From Ctena decussata (taxonomy: Eukaryota; Mollusca; Bivalvia; Lucinida; Lucinidae), in contig OZ022511.1 in NCBI GenBank assembly GCA_963989385.1, positions 27,646,503 through 27,710,502 of the forward strand: 64,000 bases of DNA. Direction: 5' to 3'. This document shows positions 7,794 to 50,625 of this stretch, in pieces. A program made the translations under genes and the position numbers. Position 1 is the first letter of the stretch, and each line of letters starts with the position of its first letter. The notes below the pieces were generated by a model. It saw only the letters and a list, made by a program, of their open reading frames with translations, was not told the DNA's origin and ran no database searches.

Positions 7794-9447
7794 TTTTAAT
7801 CAGAAGAATTAGCAGCTGCGTGTTTCACGACAAGACACACGTTTGACAGGATCACTCGCAGACAAGTGGTTAATAAGAATCAATAAAAGAATATTCATTT
7901 TGCATCTTCAAAAATACTGCCACCTTTCTCGACTCGTGTGTTATCAGGGTAACTGCAGCTTTGAAACTGCCTTATCGACCTGATAACCATTTTTATCTTT
8001 CGGATATCCTTATTTGTAATCAGTTCCATCATAATCATTAAAAAAAATAACGAATAGTCTTTAAGATTTGCTCCATTTTAGCACGTATGACGTGGCATTG
8101 CAGCAGTGGAACATTTCAGCCACATCATGTGATTTCAGACAATATGGCAATGAAGACAAGCAAAGGCTCTAATCAGACTGCACTTAAGTGCAGTCTGTTT
8201 AGAGCCTTCACTTGTCACATCAGCTATCTATGGAATTGTCCAAAACCATACAGCCAACAGTGAGACGTCTTTAGACCCGGTTTAAACGACAAGGATGCTT
8301 TGCATATCACATGACAAAACTGTCACGCACGATGTCGTCCCGACGTCAGTGCGATATTGTTTCGACGGCATGTGCCTGAGGAACAATGCACTTATAGGTC
8401 ACAAAATGTAGCACGATACTATTGCGCATAGCCTTACGGTGGCACGCTGAGACAAACGGCTATGCAGAGTAGCGCCGTAGTCTGCTAGTGACAAGGAACT
8501 TCATCTCCTCGTGGGAGTCATATACTGAGGTAATCAATCAGTTAATTAGTTTATAATTGACTGATACATGTATACTCATTATCTCTGGTCAATAAATGGT
8601 TTGATATATGGGAGCATTCACTGTCATTATAAGGGTAGCATTCCCATTATGTGTTAATTTCAAAGACTTTAAAGGAAGTTTTGATTTGACTCATGAGACT
8701 GGCCAAGAGTATATTAAGCCAAGGTCGGTATGGATATTTAGAAAGTACGCTTATTGTCTATTGCTGCAAGAACTTATACCTATAGAACCGAGATCAAGTA
8801 AGAGAGTTGTCGCGAGAGGTAAAATATCGGCTCGTTATATTTCGTGTTTGGCTCATGGCGTTTTGGGTATTATCCAGTTTAAGATAGACGGCGGACAAAG
8901 TTTGAAAGAATAGTTGCCCAATGAAAGTTTCCCAGCTTTCCCTCGAAAAATGCGCAAGCTCGGTGCGGAAAATGCCGTCTGTTTGCGAAAATGCGAATAA
9001 GAGAATAATATGTAGCAACTAAGATATACGTGACACATTTTATTAGCGTTTGGTAGGGTCGGTTCTTCTGTTTCAGCTCATTTTCAGAGCTTAAACTTAT
9101 TGGCGTCGCTTGAACGACCCTTTGAGACATTATTTCCGTACTGTAAACAGTCGAACGAGCCTGCGCAGCCAGACAAACAGTCATGGGTCTTCACCTTTCA
9201 CTTTTAGTTCGGATTTTGTGGAAACATGTATACGAGACGTTCTCAGTTAAGCTGGGCCATTAGCTATTAATTTTGTCCTTCCTATTACCTCTCTTTAAAT
9301 TACAAAATAATGGTTCTAATTACCCTCTGACAAGTAGCCCTCTGTCTAAAGAAGTAGTTAAAAGTACCAAGACATAAATGCGTTTTGTTAGACATTTTTT
9401 ACACTGGTTCGAATAATGATACCCTGGTTAAAAAGGCGACGTTTTTG
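7794..9447. other. Anonymous stretch with one hairpin
   Basis: The only obvious structure is a palindrome at about 8155-8218 (GACAAGCAAAGGCTCTAATC opposite a near-complement, heart CACTTAAGTG). The 101-codon frame at 8608-8913 matches nothing I know and has no splice context. A 40-bp segment at 9222-9262 (around GACGTTCTCAGTTAAGCTGG) recurs inverted at 11455-11496, which marks an unnamed dispersed repeat. Confidence 0.45.
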
Positions 9448-9505
9448 AATTAAAATCTGAAAGCGTTCCTTCAAGAGCAGAGAATACATTCACAAGAAGG
9501 AACAT

Positions 9506-9551
9506 GGGCCAGACTACGTAGTTTCGGCTAATAAAGCCTCTTCAGTGACCC
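9506..9551 (-). ncRNA. Type I hammerhead ribozyme, unit 1
   Basis: Minus-strand reading, in order. Stem I strand GGGTCA (9546-9551); core CTGAAGA (9539-9545); stem II GGCT/AGCC with loop TTATT (9526-9538); core GAA plus A15.1 (9522-9525). The stem III region ACTACGTAGT spans 9513-9522, followed by C17 at 9512. The second stem I strand TGGCCC (9506-9511) pairs with GGGTCA, with one G-U. Every invariant core position is present, including the G10.1-C11.1 pair and the A15.1-U16.1 pair. Predicted cleavage is between 9512 and 9511. Stem III is a self-complementary 10-mer, so a monomer has only about 3 bp with a tetraloop, while two copies can share a full 10-bp stem. Confidence 0.88.
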
Positions 9552-9888
9552 TGACAATATCTAGTGACGAAACCAAAGAAGAGCATACTGTAATTGCTTA
9601 AGCTTAATTGGACAGTCGATTCAAAGACTGATTAGTATCAAAAAGGGTCCAAATAATATATAAAATGATGGCTTAGAATATGAGTATAAACCAATCTAAA
9701 ATATCAGATTTCTCAGAATATATCCTCTGATCTCAAAGGACGAAAATAAAATATAATCTGCACTATGGATGATGTACGGGGAGACGTTTTACGGCCGCCA
9801 CACTGCACAACACCAGCTGCAGTGAGGTAAAATTAAAATCTGAAAGCGTTCCTTCAAGAGCAGAGAATACATTCACAAGAAGGAACAT

Positions 9889-9934
9889 GGGCCAGACTAC
9901 GTAGTTTCGGCTAATAAAGCCTCTTCAGTGACCC
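9889..9934 (-). ncRNA. Type I hammerhead ribozyme, unit 2
   Basis: Core, stems and cleavage site are identical to those of unit 1, 383 bp further on. Cleavage at units 1 and 2 of a minus-strand transcript would release a 383-nt RNA. Confidence 0.88.
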
Positions 9935-10271
9935 TGACAATATCTAGTGACGAAACCAAAGAAGAGCATACTGTAATTGCTTAAGCTTAATTGGACAGTC
10001 GATTCAAAGACTGATTAGTATCAAAAAGGGTCCAAATAATATATAAAATGATGGCTTAGAATATGAGTATAAACCAATCTAAAATTTCAGATTTCTCAGA
10101 ATATATCCTCTGATCTCAAAGGACGAAAATAAAATATAATCTGCACTATGGATGATGTACGGGGAGACGTTTTACGGCCGCCACACTGCACAACACAAGC
10201 TGCAGTGAGGTAAAATTAAAATCTGAAAGCGTTCCTTCAAGAGCAGAGAATACATTCACAAGAAGGAACAT

Positions 10272-10317
10272 GGGCCAGACTACGTAGTTTCGGCTAATAA
10301 AGCCTCTTCAGTGACCC
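10272..10317 (-). ncRNA. Type I hammerhead ribozyme, unit 3
   Basis: This is the same intact hammerhead within the 3'-truncated third unit. All three ribozymes are sequence-identical over stems and core. Confidence 0.88.
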
Positions 10318-10513
10318 TGACAATATCTAGTGACGAAACCAAAGAAGAGCATACTGTAATTGCTTAAGCTTAATTGGACAGTCGATTCAAAGACTGATTA
10401 GTATCAAAAAGGGTCCAAATAATATATAAAATGATGGATTAGAATATGAGTATAAACCAATCTAAAATTTCAGATTTCTCAGAATATATCCTCTGATCTC
10501 AAAGGACGAAAAT

Positions 10514-11898
10514 GTCGCAATATTGCCGTTGCATAGATATGAACGCCGCACGGCTACAAAAGATAAACCACTGCTAAAACCGAGTTCCATCATTAAATTC
10601 AGGTGATTTCTTACATATTTCCCCGCTTAAACAATATCTAAAGGGCAGTTTTTGCTACGAAAAGAGACTGGGAACTAATGTCGCAAATTTTATGTAACCT
10701 ACGTCACAGCGGTAAATTCATGATACATGTGTTAACTAAAATGGCCCGGCATCATAAAACTTACAAGATCACACGAAGAAATATGCGTTCTTCAATGTTT
10801 TATATCATTTGTGCAAATTTGCTCCATTTTGTATAATTTACTCGACTTCAAAATACATTACCCCCGCATTTTTCTGTAAGAATGTAACCTTACGTCACGG
10901 GCTTTATTTTAAACTGAGCAAAGCAATCGTTATGAAAATCATGTGCAAAATCCTGCCTAGTAACAGCTACAAGATGGTGTGCTTAGATTTCATGCACTGA
11001 AACATTAAATGGTACAAAAACGTTAAAAAGTGTGTACTGTAACCTACGTCACACGTAACCTACGTCACAACGTCACCAAGACCACGTTTTGAAAGCGCTG
11101 ACGTCATTTGACTAAGCAGCGCTTCATAGAAAACCCCTTTCTTCCAAAAAAGCAAAGAAAACCATTTTAAATTGAAACCAGCCAAAATAATCAAATGTCA
11201 GTATATTAGCAAATGTGCAATGCTATGCATGTCAAAGAAATCGTATGCGACATCGTCTTTCAACGTATCTAAATAACGTTATAAAACATACCATTTCTAA
11301 TTGTTAGGGTGTGCCTCTAAACATGGTTGGTATTCCATAATCTGAAACTATTATCTGAAAATATTTTAAAGCTTTGAAGCAGATATAATGAGCAATATGG
11401 TCGTGATTTTTTCTTGAATTCCGGCATGGTTGAATATATGGCCATTTTTGTCCGCGAATGGCCCAGCTTAACTGAGAACGTCTCATACATGTATGATCAG
11501 ATTGCATCAGTGCCTGATCATTGCCTATATTTTTACTTTTATTACTCATTTCTTCTTGTTCTTTCGATGGCTTGGTGGGTTGGGCTTCATAGTTGTGGTT
11601 GTCTACAATTTTGCAAATAAAATCTGAAAACAATATCATCAAAGTTAGTTCTAGCTTTTCCACTTAGATGTACAAAGATCTGATGATACAAAGATTGTTT
11701 CTTTCCTTTCTTTCCTTGCAATGTAATCAACGTTAGTTCTAATTCAAAGACCTACCTATATTTAAATTTCTTTCTTTTCCTTACTCTGTTTATTTTCTTT
11801 TTCTTTTCTTTCTGTCTTTCTTTCTAATTTATGAAGAGGAATTATGTTACAATTACTTTATTGTAATCTGCTTTTTACGTTGTAGCGTCTACATTGTC
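10514..11898. other. Anonymous stretch with CTACGTCAC repeats and a CT-rich tract
   Basis: GTAACCTACGTCAC-like words occur at about 10695, 10885 and twice at 11038-11070. A pyrimidine-rich microsatellite-like tract (CTTT/CCTTT steps) covers about 11695-11830. The 119-codon minus-strand frame at 11304-11663 overlaps the dispersed segment also seen at 9222-9262 and is not credible as a gene. Confidence 0.45.
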
Positions 11899-22149: not shown

Positions 22150-22527
22150 CTGGGCCCAGTTGTTCAAAGCATCGTTAGCCTAACGAGCTCGTTAAGGGGT
22201 CAACTCGTTAAGTGTTTTGCATCTTTGTAACCAAATACGCTGGTATTTTTTTGTTGAAAAAATGTAAGAAGCTTTTGCAATACGCTGGTATTTTTTGTTG
22301 AAAAAATGTAAGAAGCTTTTGCACCGCTGGTATTTTTTGTTGAAAAAATGTAAGAAGCTTTTGCACTGCAAAAGCTTCTTACATTTCTTCACCAAAAAAT
22401 ACCAGCGTATTGCAAAAGCTTCTTACATTTTTTCAACAAAAAATACCAGCGTATTTGAGATATTAACGTTTAAAATTTTAACGAAACGTTAACTAACGAC
22501 GTCATAAGTTTTGAACAACCGGGCCCA
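22150..22527. repeat. Family L foldback element with internal direct repeats
   Basis: The ends CTGGGCCCAGTTGTTCAAA and TTTTGAACAACCGGGCCCAG are inverted. The left arm has three direct copies and the right arm two inverted copies of a module of about 48 bp around CGCTGGTATTTTTTGTTG and AAGAAGCTTTTGCA. The ORFs rich in KKCKKLL are read-through of this module. Confidence 0.85.
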
Positions 22528-37547: not shown

Positions 37548-39330
37548 AGCTCACCTGAGCCGAAGGCTCACAGGTGAGCTTATAGTATAGGCAGGCATCC
37601 GTCGTCCGTCGTCCGTCGTCCGTCCGTCGTCCGTCGTCCGTCCGTCGTCCGTCAATATTTTCAAAAGACATCTCCTCTGAAACTACAAGGCCCATTGTTA
37701 CCAAATTTCATATATAGCATCTATAGGCAGGGGGAACCAATAATACTGTTTTTTATCCAAATCGCTTCAGAACTTTGGTTGCTATGGCAACTTAAAGTTT
37801 CCATTGACTTGTATGGGAAAAATTGAAAATTTGCATTTATTGCTATGTCACTGCAGATGTTTTGACAAAACTTTTTCAGAAATGTTCCTTGAGTAGTCCT
37901 CTATCAACCACATGAAATTTATGTAAATTGCACAATTAGGCTGGTTGCCATGGCAACCGAAAGGTTAAAAATAGAAAAGATATTCAAAAATCATCTCCTC
38001 AGAAACTATACAACCAATAAAGCTCAAACTTCACAGAAAGGATATAGGTACTACCGTCTATAAAAACACTGTTTTTCTTGACAATTGCTCCAACAATTTG
38101 GTTGCTATGGCAACTTAAAGTTGCCATTGACTTATAATGGGAAAATTGAAAATTTGCATTTATTGCTATGTGACAGCAGATATTTTGACAAAACTTTTAC
38201 AGAAATGTTCCTTGAGTAGTCCTCTATCAACCACATGAAATTTATGTAAATTGCACGATTAGGCTGGTTGCCATGGCAACCGAATGGTTAAAAATAGAGA
38301 AGATATTCAAAAATCATCTCCTCAGAAACTATACAACCAATAAAGCTCAAACTTCACAGAAAGGATCTAGGTACTACCGTCTATAAAAATACTGTTTTTC
38401 TTGGCAATTGCTCCAGCAATTTGGTTGCTATGGCAACTTAAGGTTGCCATTGACTTATAATGGGAAAATTGAAAATTTGCATTTATTGCTATGTGACAGC
38501 AGATATTTTGACAAAACTTTTACAGAAATGTTCCTTGAGTAGTCCTATATCAACAACATGAAATTTATATAAATTGCACAATTTGACTGATTGCCATTGC
38601 AACCAAATGGTTAAAAATAGAAAAAAAAAATCATTTTTGCAGAAACTATGTGGCCGATAAAGCTCAAACTTTAAAGAACGGATCTTTGTACAAGCCTCTA
38701 TAGAATTACAGTTTTTTATGGCAATTGCTTCAGTGGATAGGTTGGTATGACAACTTATAGTTTCCATTGAAATATAATGGGAAAAATGGAAAGCTGCAGT
38801 TTTTGCTATCTCCCTGCAGTTATTTTTGGATTTTTTATCTACAGAAATGTTGCTTGAGTAGTCCTCTATGATTCCTATTAATTTTGTCCAAATTGCCAAA
38901 TTTGATTTGTTGCCATGGCAATATTAAGGAAATATTTTTGAAAAAAATATTTAAAAATCTTTTCAACAAAAACCATATAGGGGGATGAAGCTGATTCTTT
39001 GCATGCATGTTCATGACATTAGCCACCACGTAAATATTGTTTTTATTATTGTTGCCCACATGGTTTCATTACTATGGCATTTTAAAGTTTCCATAGACTT
39101 GTATTGCGAAAAGTGCAAATTGGCATTTATTTCTGTGTTACTGCAATATTTAGGCAAAAAGTTTTACAAACATGTTTTTTTTTATTGTAACTTCATTAAA
39201 CTTGCTAATATTTACTAGGACAAGCAAAGTTGAAATTAATCCGAATTGTACAACTTACTTCAGTGTTTCTTACTCTTGAGTGCTAAGGATGAATGGACTC
39301 AGGTGAGCTACAGGACCAATGGTCCTCTGG
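37548..39330 (+). mobile_element. Family E1 Helitron/pearl-like non-autonomous element
   Basis: The head AGCTCACCTGAGCCGAAGGC forms a hairpin with CTCACAGGTGAGCT and is followed by a CGTCCGTCGTC microsatellite at about 37600-37652. Next comes a segment shared with E2 and E3, then five diverging tandem units of about 322 bp (starts near 37777, 38100, 38423, 38740, 39062; landmark GGTTGCTATGGCAACTTAAA). The end is CTCAGGTGAGCTACAGG with a final hairpin AGGACCAATGGTCCT and CTGG. Insertion is between T residues without a target duplication. Hairpin end, microsatellite, tandem core and no duplication fit 'pearl'/Helentron-type rolling-circle elements. Confidence 0.72.
37777..39233 (+). repeat. 322-bp tandem units inside E1
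   Basis: Units 1 to 3 are spaced exactly 323 bp apart and are very similar. Units 4 and 5 (spacings about 317 and 322) are clearly older. This suggests amplification from the 5' side. Landmarks are TGCATTTATTGCTATGTGAC, TTCCTTGAGTAGTCCTCTAT and GTTGCCATGGCAACCGAA. Confidence 0.88.
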
Positions 39331-42937: not shown

Positions 42938-44870
42938 ATAAGGCCCCTTTTCTGCCCAAGAGCAAAATGTTTTATTTTCTGCTGATGATTAGCCTAAAGT
43001 GTCCGCTATACTGAATAAATAATGGTTAAGCTCCGTAAACATTACTTTTGGAATAATGGGGTTATTAAAGTGGGTGGGGTAAATCAGCATGGACCAGGGG
43101 AGTCATATTATAAGCTATATTTCTCCTTCAAATTTAATGGTATTCATATATATCTTCCTTCATAAGTTAAAATAATGTCTGAGGTGATATCTTTTCTCAA
43201 TTTCTACCTTTCAAAGTAAAATCTTATGTCTGCGTAATTTCTTTTAGTGACACTGTCAATTTTCAGTAATTTTGGTACTTTGAATTCAAGATATTTTACC
43301 ATATGACTTCTTACCAAACTAATGTGGGTTCACTGATGGGAGAGTGCAAACTGTTGATTAAATTTTGGTGACCTTGACCTTTGGTTCAAGGTCACTGTAA
43401 GACTTATAATGTCAATTTTAAGTCAAGCTTTGACCATTGTCTACACATTAGCTCCTGAATTGATATGAAATCATGACCAAGGTGGCCAAAATAAGCACTA
43501 TGAAAAGTTAGATCACTGGTTATGATAAAATCTTATGTCTGCGTAATTTCTTTTAGTGACACTGTCAATTTTCAGTAATTTTGGTACTTTGAATTCAAGA
43601 TATTTTACCATATGGCTTCTTACCAAACTAATGTGGGTTCACCGATGGGAGAGTGCAAACTGTTGATTAAATTTTGGTGACCTTGACCTTTGGTTCAAGG
43701 TCACTGTAAGACTTATAATGTCAATTTTAAGTCAAGCTTTGACCATTGTCTACACATTAGCTCCTGAATTGATATGAAATCATGACCAAGGTGGCCAAAA
43801 TAAGCACTATGAAAAGTTAGAGCACTGGTTATGATAAAATGGCCATGACATCATTTTCAAGGTCAAGGTCAAGGTTAGAATAGACAGAGTTTAATCAAAT
43901 ATCTCACACAGCTATACAGAAATTTAAGAATTATGTATGTTTGTATTTGTAAATCAATGCTTAATATGCATATAATGACCTTGACCTTGATCTGAAGGTC
44001 ACCAATATATTCAGAAGTTCAGTATTTCACAATAGACTTTTCTTTAACCTTTAAGTTTAACCCAGTTCTGTTTCATTATGTCTGGCTAATGTTGACCTTC
44101 AGACCAAGGTCAAGGTCATTCTGTGCACATTAAACATTCATTTTCAAATGAAAACTCTCAGCTTTGGTACATTTCTGTTGACTGATTGTGTGAAATCTAT
44201 GATGAAACTCTGTTTAGTCTAACCTTGACCTTGAAGATGATTTTATGGCCATTTAATCATAACTAGTGCTCTAACTCTTCATAATGTTTAACTTAGGCCA
44301 CTTTGGTCATGATTTCATATCAATTCAGGAGCTAATGTGTAAACAATGGTCAAAACTTGACTAAAATTGACATAGTAAGTCTTACTGTGACCTTGAAACA
44401 AAGGCCAAGGTCACCAAAATTTAATCAACGAGTTGCACTCTCCCAACGGTGAACCCATGTTAGTTTGGTAAGTAGTCATCCATTGGTTCTAGAGATATGG
44501 TAGAATATACTGAATTCAAAGTACCAAACTTACTGAAATTTGACAGTGTCACTAAAAGAAATTCTGCAGACATAAGATTTTACTTTGAAAGGTAGAAATT
44601 GAGAAAAGATATCACCTCAGACATTATTTTAACTTATAAAAGGAGATACATGTACATATGAATGCCTTTAAATTTGAAGGAGAAATATTGCTTATAATAA
44701 GACTCCGCTGGTTCATGCTGAATTACCCCACCCACTTTAATAACCCCATTATTCCAAAAGTAGTGCTTACGGAGCTTAACCACTATTGATTCAGTATAGC
44801 GGACACTGAAGGCTAATCATCAGCTGAAAATAAAACATTTTGCTCTTGGGCAGAAAAGGCCTTATAGCCT
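42938..44870. repeat. Large inverted repeat inside the TTAA element
   Basis: The left arm starts at TATAAGGCCCCTTTTCTGCC and runs to about 43920. The right arm, about 44165-44870, is its diverged complement, ending GGGCAGAAAAGGCCTTATAG. Shared landmarks are GAATAATGGGGTTATTAAAG and AATAATGTCTGAGGTGATAT. The left arm is longer because of an internal duplication. The unpaired middle is only about 240 bp. A poly-C run at about 44871-44884 borders the right arm. Confidence 0.87.
43222..43839. repeat. 309-bp recent tandem duplication
   Basis: Segments 43222-43530 and 43531-43839 are almost identical; I see a few differences, for example ATATGACTTC against ATATGGCTTC. The right arm of the inverted repeat has only one equivalent segment, so the duplication came after the inverted repeat formed. 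Confidence 0.92.
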
Positions 44871-45299: not shown

Positions 45300-48200
45300 T
45301 GGAACTTTGATTATCTTGACCTTGAGCTTCATATTTATAGTTTTCCATCTGTTCTATGATTTATTTCTTTAAATGATATAGGACTAGTCAAATATAGCAA
45401 AGTTTTTTTTATTATATTCAGTTACTGTTTTCAAACGTTACAAACTAAGAGAAAATCCTTTTTTTAACAATCATTTAATTTGAGTTTTGATGATTTTGAC
45501 CTTGACCTTCATATTCAAATTGCTTCATCTGTTTAATTTTAGTAAATGATAAATGACTCTCCTCAAACTTGGCAATATTATTTATTAAATTTACCAAAAA
45601 AAAAAATGGTACAATGTGTAAAAAGATCCTGCTTTTTTTTTCACACACTTTGAAACGAAGTTTTGCTGTGCTTGCCCTTGACCATCATTTTAAGCTTTTC
45701 TATCTGTGTTATGATTTATTTCATTTAATGATATATGACTCTTACTGAAGCTTTGATGATCTCGACCTTGACAGTCAAATTTAAATATCTGCATCTACTT
45801 TGTGTTTTATTTCATTAATGGATATATAACTCTTTGCACATATAAACTTTTACAAAGTTTGGTACATTATATAAGATATTCGGGTGTTTCAACATTTTAA
45901 AAAGAAATCATAAGTGATTTTGACCTTGGCCTCCATATTTAAACTCCTTCATCTGTTTTATATTTCATTAGTTGATATGTGACTCTTCTAAAATACAGCA
46001 TATGCTTCATCACATATTCCAAACAAGAGGGTCATGAGGCCCTGAATCGCTCACCTGAACAATTGGTTAAGTGGGTTTTTCTTAGGTCTGAAATTGTCAA
46101 AATATGAGTCTTGGGTCAAAAGTCAAAGAATGACCACGACCTCTTGTACTCATAAATCTTCATGTACATGTACTCATTAAGACAACCATATATACCATTT
46201 GTAGGCCAAAATCTTCTCAACTGTCCATGAAATCTTATGTTCTGACATTTTTCCATAAAAAAGGTCAAGGTAAACCCAAAGTCATCGTTTGAACAGTCTT
46301 GGTAGTACTCTAGTATTCTATGCAACTTACAAGTTTCAAGGCCATAAGTGTATTGGTTCTGGAGAAGAAAAACATTAAAGGTTTATACCATAAATGGGTA
46401 TGGCGGCGATGTTGGTCATGTGACTTGCACCGTTTGAACAAATTTTTGTTCAATCAACCCCTGGAGGCTCTATATGAAATGTGTTTATAAGTGGCCCTTT
46501 TGCTTTTGAGGAAATGTCTGAAAATGTCAAAATATGAGAGATCTTAATCAAAGGTCAAAGAATGACCTTGACCTCTTGTACTCCTAGTTCTTCATGACCC
46601 AATTTTTAGGCCAACATCTTCAAAACTTCCAATGAAATCTTATGTTCTAGCATTTTCCCATATTTGACCTTGCCGTAAAATGGTCAAGGTCAATACAAGG
46701 ACATCATTTTGAAAAATCTTGAAAGTACTGGTGTACGCAATGCTACATACCAAGTTTCAAGGCCATGGGTCGATTGGTTCTGGAGAAGAAGATTTTAAAA
46801 GGTTTTTACCATATATTGGCATGGCGGCCATGTTGGTCATGTGACCTGGACCGTTTAAATGAATTTTCATTCCCTCAACCCCCGAAGGCTCTATATGAAA
46901 TTTGGTTTCCATTGGCAAAGTGGTTTTTGAGGCGATTGTTCAAAATTGTCAAAATATAAGAGTTCTGGGTCAAAGGTCAAAGAATGACCTTGACCTCTTG
47001 TACTCACAAATCTTCATGTTCTCTTTAAGATGACTGTATATACCAATTTTTGGGCCTTAATCTTCAAAACTTCCCATGAAATATTATGTTCTAATATTTT
47101 CCCAAATTTGACCTTTCCGAAAAAAAAGGTCAAAGTCACCCAAGGTCATAATTTGAACAATCTTGATAGTACAAGAGTACTCGATGCTACATACCAAGTT
47201 TCAAGGCCATCGGTCAATCGGTTCTTGAGAGGAAGATTTTTTTTAGGTTTTTACCATATATGGGCGGGGTGGCCATGTGGGTCACGTGACCTGGACCGTA
47301 TAAATAAATTTTGTTCTCTCAACCCCCTGGAAGTTCTACATAAAATTTAAGAACAATTGGCTTAGTGGCTTTTGAGGAGATTGTTTGAAATTGTCAAAAT
47401 ATGCGAGTTTTGGGTCAAAGGTCAAAGAATGACCTTGACCTCTTGTACTCATAAATCTTCATGTTCTCATTAAGATGACTGATACCAATATTTTGCCCAA
47501 AATCTTCAACAGTTTCCAAGATATCTTATGTTCTAGCATTTTGCCATATAAAAGTGCAAGGAAGCAAACTTGACCTTACCGTAGAAAAGGTAAAGGTCAA
47601 CCCAAGGTCATCATTTGAACAATCTTGGTAGTACTTGTGCACCCAATGCTACATACTAAGTTTCAAGGCCATTGGCAAATTGGTTCTGGAGCAGAAGATT
47701 TTTTTAGGTTTTTACCATATATGGGCGTGGCGGCCATGTTATTCATGTGACCTGGACCATATGAATAAATTTTTGTTCCCTCAACCCCTGGAGGCTCTAT
47801 ATGGAATCTGGTTTCAATTGACCCAGTGGCTTTTGAGGAGATTGTTTGAAGTTTTCAAAATATGAGAGGTGTGGGTCAAAGGTCAAAGAATGACCTTGAC
47901 CTCTTGTACTCATAAATCTTCATGTACAAGTAAATCTTCATGTACATGTAGATACCAATGTTTAGCCCAAAATTTTCAACAGTTTCCAAGATATCTTATG
48001 TTCTAGCATTTTCCCATATAAAAGCACCATAAAGCAAATTTGACCTTGCCGTAACAAAGGTCAAGGTCAACTCAAGATCATAATTTGAAGAACCTTGGTA
48101 GTACTCGCATACCAGATGCTACATATTAAGTTTCAAGGCCATCGGCCTATTAGTTCTCAAGAAGAAGATTTTTTAAGCTTTTTACCATATATGGGCGTGG

Positions 48201-49990
48201 CGGCCATGTTGGTCATGTGACCAGGACTGTTTGAACAACTTTTCGTTCCTAAGGTCCCAGGAAGTATATATGAAATTTGGTTGCAATCGGTCCACAGGTT
48301 TCAGAGGAGAAGTTGTTTGAAAGTGTGGACGGACGACATACGACTGACGACGGACGGACGACGGACGCCAGAGCCTTACCATTCTATAAGCTCCCCCAGA
48401 GCCGCTGGCTCAGGTGAGCTAAAAAGCAATTGCAAATCTTAGTACAAAGTATGAGAAAATTCCACTTTTTCCAAATTTTGACAGGAAGCTGTGATTTTCA
48501 TGGCCTTGACCTTCGTATTTGAATTTTTCAATCTGATTTATTAATACTCTTTTCAAATATAGCAATGGTTTTATCATATCCAGTTAATCATTACAAACAT
48601 TGGTATAAGTAAATCATGGGGAAAATTCCTCTTTTTCGACATTTCGAAATCGGAGCTATGATGTGTTTGACCTTGACCTTTCTTTTTGAATTTGTTGATC
48701 TGTTTTATGTATTGTCACATTAAATACGTTGCTCTTTTCAGATAAAGCAATGGTTTTCTTCTATATGCAGTAGACCTTTATAAAAAAAATGGGACAAAAA
48801 AGGAAATTCCCATTTTTTTAACAACATTTTGAAATTGGAGTTTTGTGCTTGACCTTGACCTTCATATTTTTTTTGCTTCATTAAATGATATATTGCAATT
48901 TTCAAATATAGCAAGTGCAATATATTTTCTGATCATTGTCAGTTAACCTTTACAAAAAATGAGAAATTTCCACTTTTCAACATTTTGATAATGGACCTTT
49001 GTTGTGCTTGACCTTGACCTTGATATTTGAATTTCTGGATCTGTTTTATTTATTGTTATATTAAATGATACATTGTTCTTTTAATATATATCAATGGCTT
49101 TCTTATGATATCCAGGTAACTTTAACAAAAAAGGGACGAAAATGAGAAAACCCAGAAACTTCCATGCTTGAAAGTAGGTCCTTCGCTGATTTTGACCTTG
49201 ACCTTTGTATTTGAATTTTTCAATATGTGTTATGCTTTGCTTCGTTACATGATATATGTTTCTTTTCAAATATAGCAATGGTTTTCTTATCATATTCAGT
49301 TAATTTTTACAAAAATTGGGACATAAAATGAGAAATTCCCAGTTTTTCAACATTTTGAAATTGGAGTTTTGTTGTGCTTGACCTTGACCTTCGTATTTGA
49401 TTTTGCTGATCTGTTTTTCATTTTGCTTTATTAAATGACATGTTGTTCTTTTCAAATATAGCAATGGTTTTCTTATTATATTCAGTTAACCATTACAAAA
49501 ATTGGGACATAAAATGAGAAATTCCCAGTTTTTCAACATTTTGAAATTTGAGTTCTGTTGTGCCTAACCTTGACCTTCATATTTGAATTTCTGGATCTGT
49601 TTTATGTTTCGCTTCATTAAATGATATATTGTTCTTTTAAAATACAGTAATGGCTTTCTTATGATACTCAGTTATCCTTTACAAAAATTGGGACATAAAA
49701 TGAGAAATTACCAGTTTTTCAACATTTTGAAATGGGAGCTTTGCTGTGTGTGACCTTGACCTTCATATTTGATTTTATTGATCTGTTTTATGTTTTGCTT
49801 CGTTAAATGACATGTTGCTCTATTCAACTGTAGCAATCGTTTTCTTTATCATATTCAGTTAACCTTTACAGAAATTGGGACAAAAATGAGAAAATCCAAG
49901 TTTTTTCATGTTTAGAAATAGGAGCTTTGCATAATTTGACCTTGACCTTCAAATATTAATTTCTCCATCCAGTTTTTTTTATATTATATA
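45300..49990. repeat. About 185-bp tandem array rich in GACCTTGACC
   Basis: Units with the landmarks TTGACCTTGACCTTCATATT, TTAAATGATATATTG, CAATGGTTTTCTTATCATAT and GAGAAATTCCCAGTTTTTCA recur about every 185 bp. In 48660-49950 the starts lie near 48667, 48850, 49009, 49194, 49378, 49560, 49750 and 49935. Older units occupy 45300-46020. The array is split by the E2 insertion at 46024-48420. Confidence 0.85.
46024..48420 (-). mobile_element. Family E2 Helitron/pearl-like element
   Basis: On the minus strand the head AGCTCACCTGAGCCAGCGGC is followed by a CGTCCGTCGTC microsatellite. Then come about five tandem units of about 440 bp (landmarks GACCTTGACCTCTTGTACTC and GGCGTGGCGGCCATGTTGG on the plus strand). 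The tail is TCAGGTGAGCGATTCAGGG ending CCCTCTTG. It shares head and tail style with E1 but has a different tandem core. Insertion is within A residues of the 185-bp array, with no target duplication. The many 60-106 codon frames are repeat translations. Confidence 0.75.
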
Positions 49991-50625
49991 CTTTGGTATA
50001 TTACTAGTTATGACTATACTAGTGGCTTTCTGAACATCTTCTGCGAAACTACCCAAAACTTGTTCCGAAGAACGTCAAAATCCCAATTATTCCACATTTT
50101 GGAATTTGCCGATTTGTGTCCCCTTCGAGCCCCCAGTGTGGCCTAAGTGTGAGACATACTTGTTTTTTATTTCTTTCTGTATACAGAGCTAAGTTGGTAT
50201 TATATGTTATAATATCTGTATTAGGGATTTAAGAATTACCTATGGATGGATAGACCACACTAATATCCTATTTTTTCAGTTTTTTCCTCCTAATTTTTGG
50301 ACTCTCTTGTTTGACTCAAATTGTCTTGGTTACCATGGCAACAGGATGACTCACAGAAATTTCACTACTGTTTTTGTAGTTTGGGGGTCATTTCTGATTC
50401 ATACACCAAGAATGAAAAACATCTGAGACGTAGCGTGCCGGACCCCTATGGCAATTTTCTGATTTTTACAGAGAATTGATATTAAGTGGCTTTATGAATA
50501 CGGCCCCCGACTTTGAAGACGGATCTAGATTTTTGGATCGTTTTGGGAGGGAGGAAAAACCTGCCTTATGGCATAATTTCATCAGACTGATTTTGATATT
50601 TGAGGTCATTCTACACATGTGATTC

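Follow-up and report, generated by a model that had tools for sequence, protein, structure and literature searches.

A dispersed 383-nt retrozyme of the bivalve Ctena decussata with fixed 3' ends and scattered 5' ends

A 64,000-nt stretch of the Ctena decussata genome (hereafter, the window) holds a tandem array of 383-bp units, each carrying a type I hammerhead motif, and copies of this unit elsewhere in the genome nearly always share one 3' end and have scattered 5' ends. This end pattern is new evidence on how animal retrozymes move, and points to a reverse transcription that starts at a fixed internal site and runs round a template uncut at the ribozyme, likely a circle. Judged by its sequence, the element is a previously undescribed member of the metazoan non-LTR retrozymes, probably mobile and likely copied from small RNA circles. 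Its genomic copies record at which end copying starts, in which direction it runs, that it uses one template and how many rounds it makes; their fixed end lies where Penelope-like elements have theirs.

In the literature consulted, the re-entry of retrozymes into the genome and the enzyme responsible are only a proposal, made in a study on mussel in which circles are put forward as templates and Penelope-like elements are called a strong candidate (PMC7229834). We found no title or abstract on the insertion ends of animal retrozymes in the open-licence literature, and the word beginnings 'truncat' and 'boundar' are absent from the main text of PMC7229834. With the end pattern described here, the proposal becomes testable in defined terms, with a single enzyme, a single RNA circle and one predicted start nucleotide.

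A hammerhead motif in every unit of the array

Tandem Repeats Finder gave a period of 383, 2.8 copies and 99% matches for positions 9448-10513 of the window, where unit 2 shows two differences from unit 1 and the partial unit 3 likewise two. The features of the array are:

9448..10513, minus strand: retrozyme array, 2.78 units of 383 bp (tandem repeat finding and unit comparison)
9506..9551, minus strand: type I hammerhead motif, first copy from the left, unit positions 280-325 in ribozyme sense (core residues and descriptor; weak Rfam match)
9889..9934, minus strand: hammerhead motif, second copy (core residues and descriptor)
10272..10317, minus strand: hammerhead motif, third copy (core residues and descriptor)
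9511..9512, minus strand: predicted cut between C17 (9512) and 9511, placed from the motif; likewise 9895/9894 and 10278/10277
9448..9511, minus strand: 64-nt tail from the predicted cut to the fixed 3' end, containing an 8-bp hairpin, GTTCCTTC/GAAGGAAC
9447..9448, minus strand: fixed 3' end of the insertion (unit position 383), presumed start of reverse transcription (51 of 57 visible 3' ends)
10513..10514, minus strand: 5' end of the window insertion, at unit position 84 (end comparison)

On the minus strand, every unit has a stem I of 6 bp (GGGTCA/TGGCCC, one G-U included), CTGAAGA, a 4-bp stem II (GGCT-TTATT-AGCC) followed by GAA, and a stem III (ACT-ACGT-AGT) followed by C17 at 9512, 9895 or 10278. 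The open helix is stem I, hence the assignment to type I. The preliminary description had claimed a hammerhead in every unit and no protein, and both statements hold: descriptor and residues recover all three motifs, and no stop-to-stop ORF of at least 80 aa overlaps the array, whose unit has a G+C content of 37.9%. A relaxed descriptor run on the whole window matched exactly these three motifs and nowhere else; 300 dinucleotide-shuffled versions of the window, scanned on both strands, gave one match. The covariance check put forward at the same time turned out negative, since no family reached its gathering score in an Rfam search of the whole window; the best hammerhead match (RF00008, 17.6 bits, E 2.3, cut-off 48.5) was confined to the unit at 9516-9560. 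We call the hammerhead from its core residues and helices rather than from a family model.

Predicted folding counts against the hammerhead. Its fold is less stable than the best one by 1 to 2.2 kcal/mol, varying with the stretch that is folded, and by 1 kcal/mol for the circle; in the linear monomer the predicted pairing probability of stem I falls from 0.34 at 37 °C to 0.03 at 18 °C. For the 383-nt circle, predicted folding is only mildly stronger than that of shuffles (z = -2.0; opposite strand, -1.9).

Copies across the genome

We searched the 1.66-Gb assembly (245 contigs, the window being part of contig C14) twice with the element. The best 40 of 2453 first-look candidate places held 102 matches to the unit, and our first sample consists of the window array and 39 other places, taken with 1 kb of flank. 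A second sample of 20 further loci came from a query with the last 100 nt (best 40 of 1137 candidates scored). Sampled loci carry L-numbers; L078 and L079 share their flanks and were counted once, leaving 59 insertions including that of the window. Both samples are top-scoring places, in which old and 3'-truncated copies are under-represented. Sampling did not disfavour ends past position 383, and L025 alone showed one. Counts of 3' ends leave out L080 and L084, whose 3' ends fall outside the retrieved stretch, and counts of 5' ends leave out L025; allele tests cover only the 40 insertions of the first sample.

The sampled copies range from 0.37 unit to at least 8.4 units and most have fewer than three, and their flanks are mutually unrelated. 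Among the 19 insertions of the second sample, 12 are single partial units, all of them ending at position 383 or 382. Taken together, the dispersal of the units, the absence of a long ORF, a hammerhead core intact in 83 of the 88 units that span it, and a size and kind close to the 350-390-bp retrozymes described in mussel (PMC7229834) bear out the initial identification as a retrozyme. Recent activity, which had been read from the near-identity of the units, is plausible: 20 of 39 arrays differ by less than 1% between their own units (0.5% in the window), although this similarity is in part an effect of a shared template. The exact hammerhead-core pattern had no match in viral contig and genome contig collections, neither of them of animals.

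One fixed end and one scattered end

In ribozyme sense, 51 of 57 insertions end at unit position 383, which is position 9448 of the window and lies 64 nt downstream of the predicted cut; four end at 382, one at 379 and one at 98 (L025). The DNA beyond the fixed end varies among copies, with A as the third base in 30 of 51, and the sampled copies have neither an A-tail nor a simple-repeat tail at this end. The 58 scored 5' ends, by contrast with this fixed position, are spread over unit positions 1 to 327 (Kolmogorov-Smirnov against uniform, p = 0.12).

None of these 58 ends falls at the predicted cut (319-321), which rules out run-off at the 5' end of a cleaved RNA. Ten of them lie inside the ten-base palindromic stem III (309-318), a clustering seldom equalled by the densest ten-base window of random draws (p = 0.0008). 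Because these ends sit 2-11 nt past the predicted cut, the cluster is not run-off at a cleaved end either; stalling within the ribozyme is our guess at its cause.

Seamless joints and one template per array

Of 76 joints between units, 75 are seamless. The cut site is crossed with no base inserted or missing in 114 of 122 units, the other eight being misfits to the search pattern. We then compared alleles at the 17 columns in which arrays of the first sample differ from one another. Among arrays of under two units (n=28), 3 of 281 cells were mixed, against 77.5 expected if units were independent, a result that rules out assembly of the arrays by jumps between unrelated RNAs. Longer arrays (n=10, L039 set aside) had 4 mixed cells in 170, against 76.5 expected, and L009 shows zero differences over 5.33 units. 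Two loci depart from this uniformity. L025, the exception to the end rule, also has unlike units, and in L039 (G000:C17:64109826-64113797; 5.15 units) two types of unit alternate (ABABAB) at 19 of the 27 mixed columns. A dimeric circle copied through two and a half rounds would leave the pattern of L039; unequal exchange of dimers could also produce it.

Taken together, a fixed 3' end, scattered 5' ends, seamless joints and alleles from one template point to an internal start at a fixed site on a template uncut at the ribozyme. Uniform alleles within an array do not by themselves show whether the template was a circle or a linear RNA transcribed from a uniform parent array, and the same element with the same fixed start could be copied from the linear, uncut, multimeric transcript of a parent array. 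We consider this unlikely. Such a transcript would likewise explain why the 3' end is fixed, the alleles are uniform and no copy ends at the cut, and the Penelope-like enzyme of Anolis used unprocessed RNA in vitro (PMC11167929); however, the core that is intact in 83 of 88 units would cut it, the joints are seamless in all but one of 76 cases, most sampled copies have fewer than three units, so that parents for copies of five to eight units would be rare, and the published mussel RNA is mostly circular (PMC7229834).

As for constraint on the unit, the share of arrays deviating per site is 0.0076 in the hammerhead, 0.0038 in its core, 0.0289 in the tail and 0.0206 in the rest; the hammerhead is quiet, but 56 of the 383 circular 46-nt windows are equally conserved, many of them near the fixed 3' end.

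Resident Penelope-like elements end at a similar distance from their own cut

We scored the best 150 of 926 candidate GIY-YIG places in this genome. Many hold a 774-aa open frame, and some of these stand head to head or in tandem with a spacing of 3681 bp. At L068 and at G000:C2:2587885-2621697 the tandem elements are of this kind (774 aa, 3681 bp apart), and the copies at L068 are more than 99.9% alike. Pfam found GIY-YIG in four of five proteins and RVT_1 in three of those four; a 432-aa ORF upstream of the 774-aa frame had no Pfam match.

Our initial hammerhead scans missed the Penelope-like ribozymes, in which stem II has 2 bp or is irregular, and a motif search found them. In family A (6 copies), CTGACGA, GCTCAGC, GAA, ACGCGT and T precede the predicted cut, from which 62-66 nt lead to a common 3' end. 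The 7-bp stem I seen in L072 is due to chance matching with its (TA)n flank; by eye, stem I of the other family A copies is made up of two helices, of 3 and 6 bp, separated by an internal loop. Family B (14 rows, partly non-independent, of which four are terminal) combines an irregular hammerhead with a distance of 48-49 nt between predicted cut and end, and its tandem joints vary by a base or two. Stem III is palindromic in both families, as it is in the retrozyme, and a (TA)n terminus is present in 4 of 6 copies of family A and in all four terminal copies of family B.

Reverse transcription by a Penelope-like protein of Anolis has an internal start 111-118 nt into the ORF, 85-92 nt downstream of the ribozyme cut at +26; in vitro it did not require cleavage and took unprocessed RNA as its main template (PMC11167929). 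At 64 nt, the tail of the retrozyme falls within the span of these values, which are 48-49 and 62-66 nt in the resident Penelope-like elements and 85-92 nt in Anolis. Because resident families end 48-66 nt past their own cut, and because an internal start has been published for such an enzyme, a Penelope-like enzyme is the likely driver. Several findings argue against it: the retrozyme lacks the (TA)n target preference of families A and B, no 3' sequence is common to the unit and the Penelope-like bodies examined, the tandem joints of family B vary where those of the retrozyme are seamless, and the enzyme of Anolis could do without the ribozyme cut.

The absence of (TA)n targets and of shared sequence favours a LINE-type retrotransposon as the driver, the like spacing from cut to 3' end being then a coincidence with Penelope-like elements. 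We find this quite improbable, since the 3' end of the retrozyme has no A-tail or simple-repeat tail, a hammerhead with a tail of similar length occurs in two or more resident Penelope-like families, and the internal start is documented for a Penelope-like enzyme (PMC11167929).

No sequence was shared between the 383-nt unit and Penelope-like bodies in 28 loci, some of which overlap. Diverged pieces of the retrozyme lie inside four of these Penelope-like loci (L048, L059, L062 and L074; some of the 28 overlap), perhaps beyond chance. Among the 120 listed relatives of one resident Penelope-like protein, seven bear the names of bacterial symbionts of clams, five that of Thiodiazotropha and two that of the Solemya velum gill symbiont; these relatives are presumably host DNA in those assemblies, and the names fit a bivalve.

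A model for the copying of the retrozyme

The reading we think rather probable is that of a dispersed 383-nt retrozyme of metazoan type on whose circular RNA a reverse transcriptase, likely Penelope-like, starts at a fixed internal site and runs until it stops. A transcript of an array is predicted to fold its hammerheads and cut itself into 383-nt monomers, which a host ligase would close into circles; RNA circles were demonstrated by others in mussel (PMC7229834). Reverse transcription would start 64 nt downstream of the cut site, where the fixed end lies. The enzyme would then go round between 0.4 and at least 8 times and stop anywhere, as the lengths, joints and 5' ends of the copies indicate, with a circle rather than an uncut linear multimer as its presumed template. 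The copy would be fitted into unrelated targets with few bases lost or gained, as seen at four sites, by an enzyme that the matching layout suggests is supplied by a Penelope-like element.

A broader analogy, to which we give about even chances, is that animal retrozymes relate to Penelope-like elements as SINEs do to LINEs. The hammerhead and the 64-nt tail would be the minimal handle for an enzyme that seizes the RNA circle and rolls round it, and the arrays would be fossils of rolling-circle reverse transcription, among them the rolled dimeric circle of L039.

Relation to known retrozymes

In the mussel Mytilus galloprovincialis, type I hammerheads occur in 350-390-bp repeats with about 5000 copies; they are without most of the conserved contacts between loop 1 and loop 2, and their RNA is mainly circular (PMC7229834). 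The unit from Ctena resembles them in its type I hammerhead, its short tandem repeats (383 against 350-390 bp), low G+C, lack of a long ORF and dispersal, and no clear loop 1-loop 2 contacts are visible in it either, a likeness drawn from the published description. RNA has been described in mussel; for the 383-nt unit, RNA and self-cleavage are predictions from its DNA. The fixed 3' ends, the scattered 5' ends and the single template per array are features of the 383-nt unit, and the passages of PMC7229834 consulted contain no such analysis. With metazoan non-LTR retrozymes at large, the element shares a type I core, dispersed repeats within 150-450 bp, a G+C below 50% and the absence of a long ORF. 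As a group these retrozymes also lack LTRs, primer-binding sites and polypurine tracts and have unit-length RNA in linear and circular form.

Plant LTR retrozymes are likewise non-autonomous and hammerhead-bearing, with RNA circles as a proposed intermediate, but they have type III hammerheads, LTRs and 4-bp target duplications (PMC7229834); the 383-nt unit is of type I and has no LTR-like flanks. With EN+ Penelope-like elements (RVT_1 and GIY-YIG), it has in common the hammerhead, a tail of tens of nt, the fixed 3' end, the palindromic stem III and the tandem copies and, with the element of Anolis, the internal start of reverse transcription that we infer for the retrozyme. Penelope-like elements differ in being protein-coding, mostly (TA)n-ended and, in family B, variable at their joints, and in sharing no sequence with the unit.

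Target sites and surroundings of the array

Compared with seven empty-site relatives, L012 has lost four bases, two of which are possibly common to the array end. Small losses are also seen at L028 and L030 against diverged empty-site relatives, and L039 has about 4-6 bases doubled and nine extra bases. In metazoan non-LTR retrozymes target duplications exceed 4 bp when present; among the four sites compared here, doubling is seen in L039, and a long direct or inverted target duplication was discarded as a rule, the sampled insertions showing no general duplication. The A+T content of the 3' flank is 64% in the first ten bases and 63% further out, and no LTR-like flanks surround the sampled copies.

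That the unit is an ordinary satellite with an incidental hammerhead, spread by unequal exchange, circular DNA or carriage in a DNA transposon, is very improbable: its tandem form, the position of the window array within a 2.27-kb stretch with 41-bp terminal inverted repeats and the Helentron-carried satellite-like arrays reported in oyster (PMC7492417) would fit, but plain satellite spread is rejected since only one end is fixed, with a common 3' end in 51 of 57 insertions, scattered 5' ends, unrelated flanks and single partial units ending at 383 or 382 in 12 of 19 second-sample insertions.

The inverted repeats just mentioned (41 bp, 93% alike, at 9224-9264 and 11454-11492) bracket the array at 2.27 kb, with ACATGTAT on both outer sides. 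From its sequence, this stretch is likely a non-autonomous DNA transposon that the retrozyme invaded. A near-inverted 10-bp repeat at the edges of the array itself is within chance by our estimate. Other repeats of the window include a 309-bp unit present twice at 43217-43840 (99% alike, with no hammerhead or Rfam match), a 42-bp repeat at 22234-22455 that occurs three times and is followed by two reverse-complement copies, all nearly identical, and tandem arrays at 37742-38869 (323 bp), 46599-48287 (470 bp) and 48952-50105 (186 bp). Relatives of the 470-bp repeat adjoin the retrozyme in L029.
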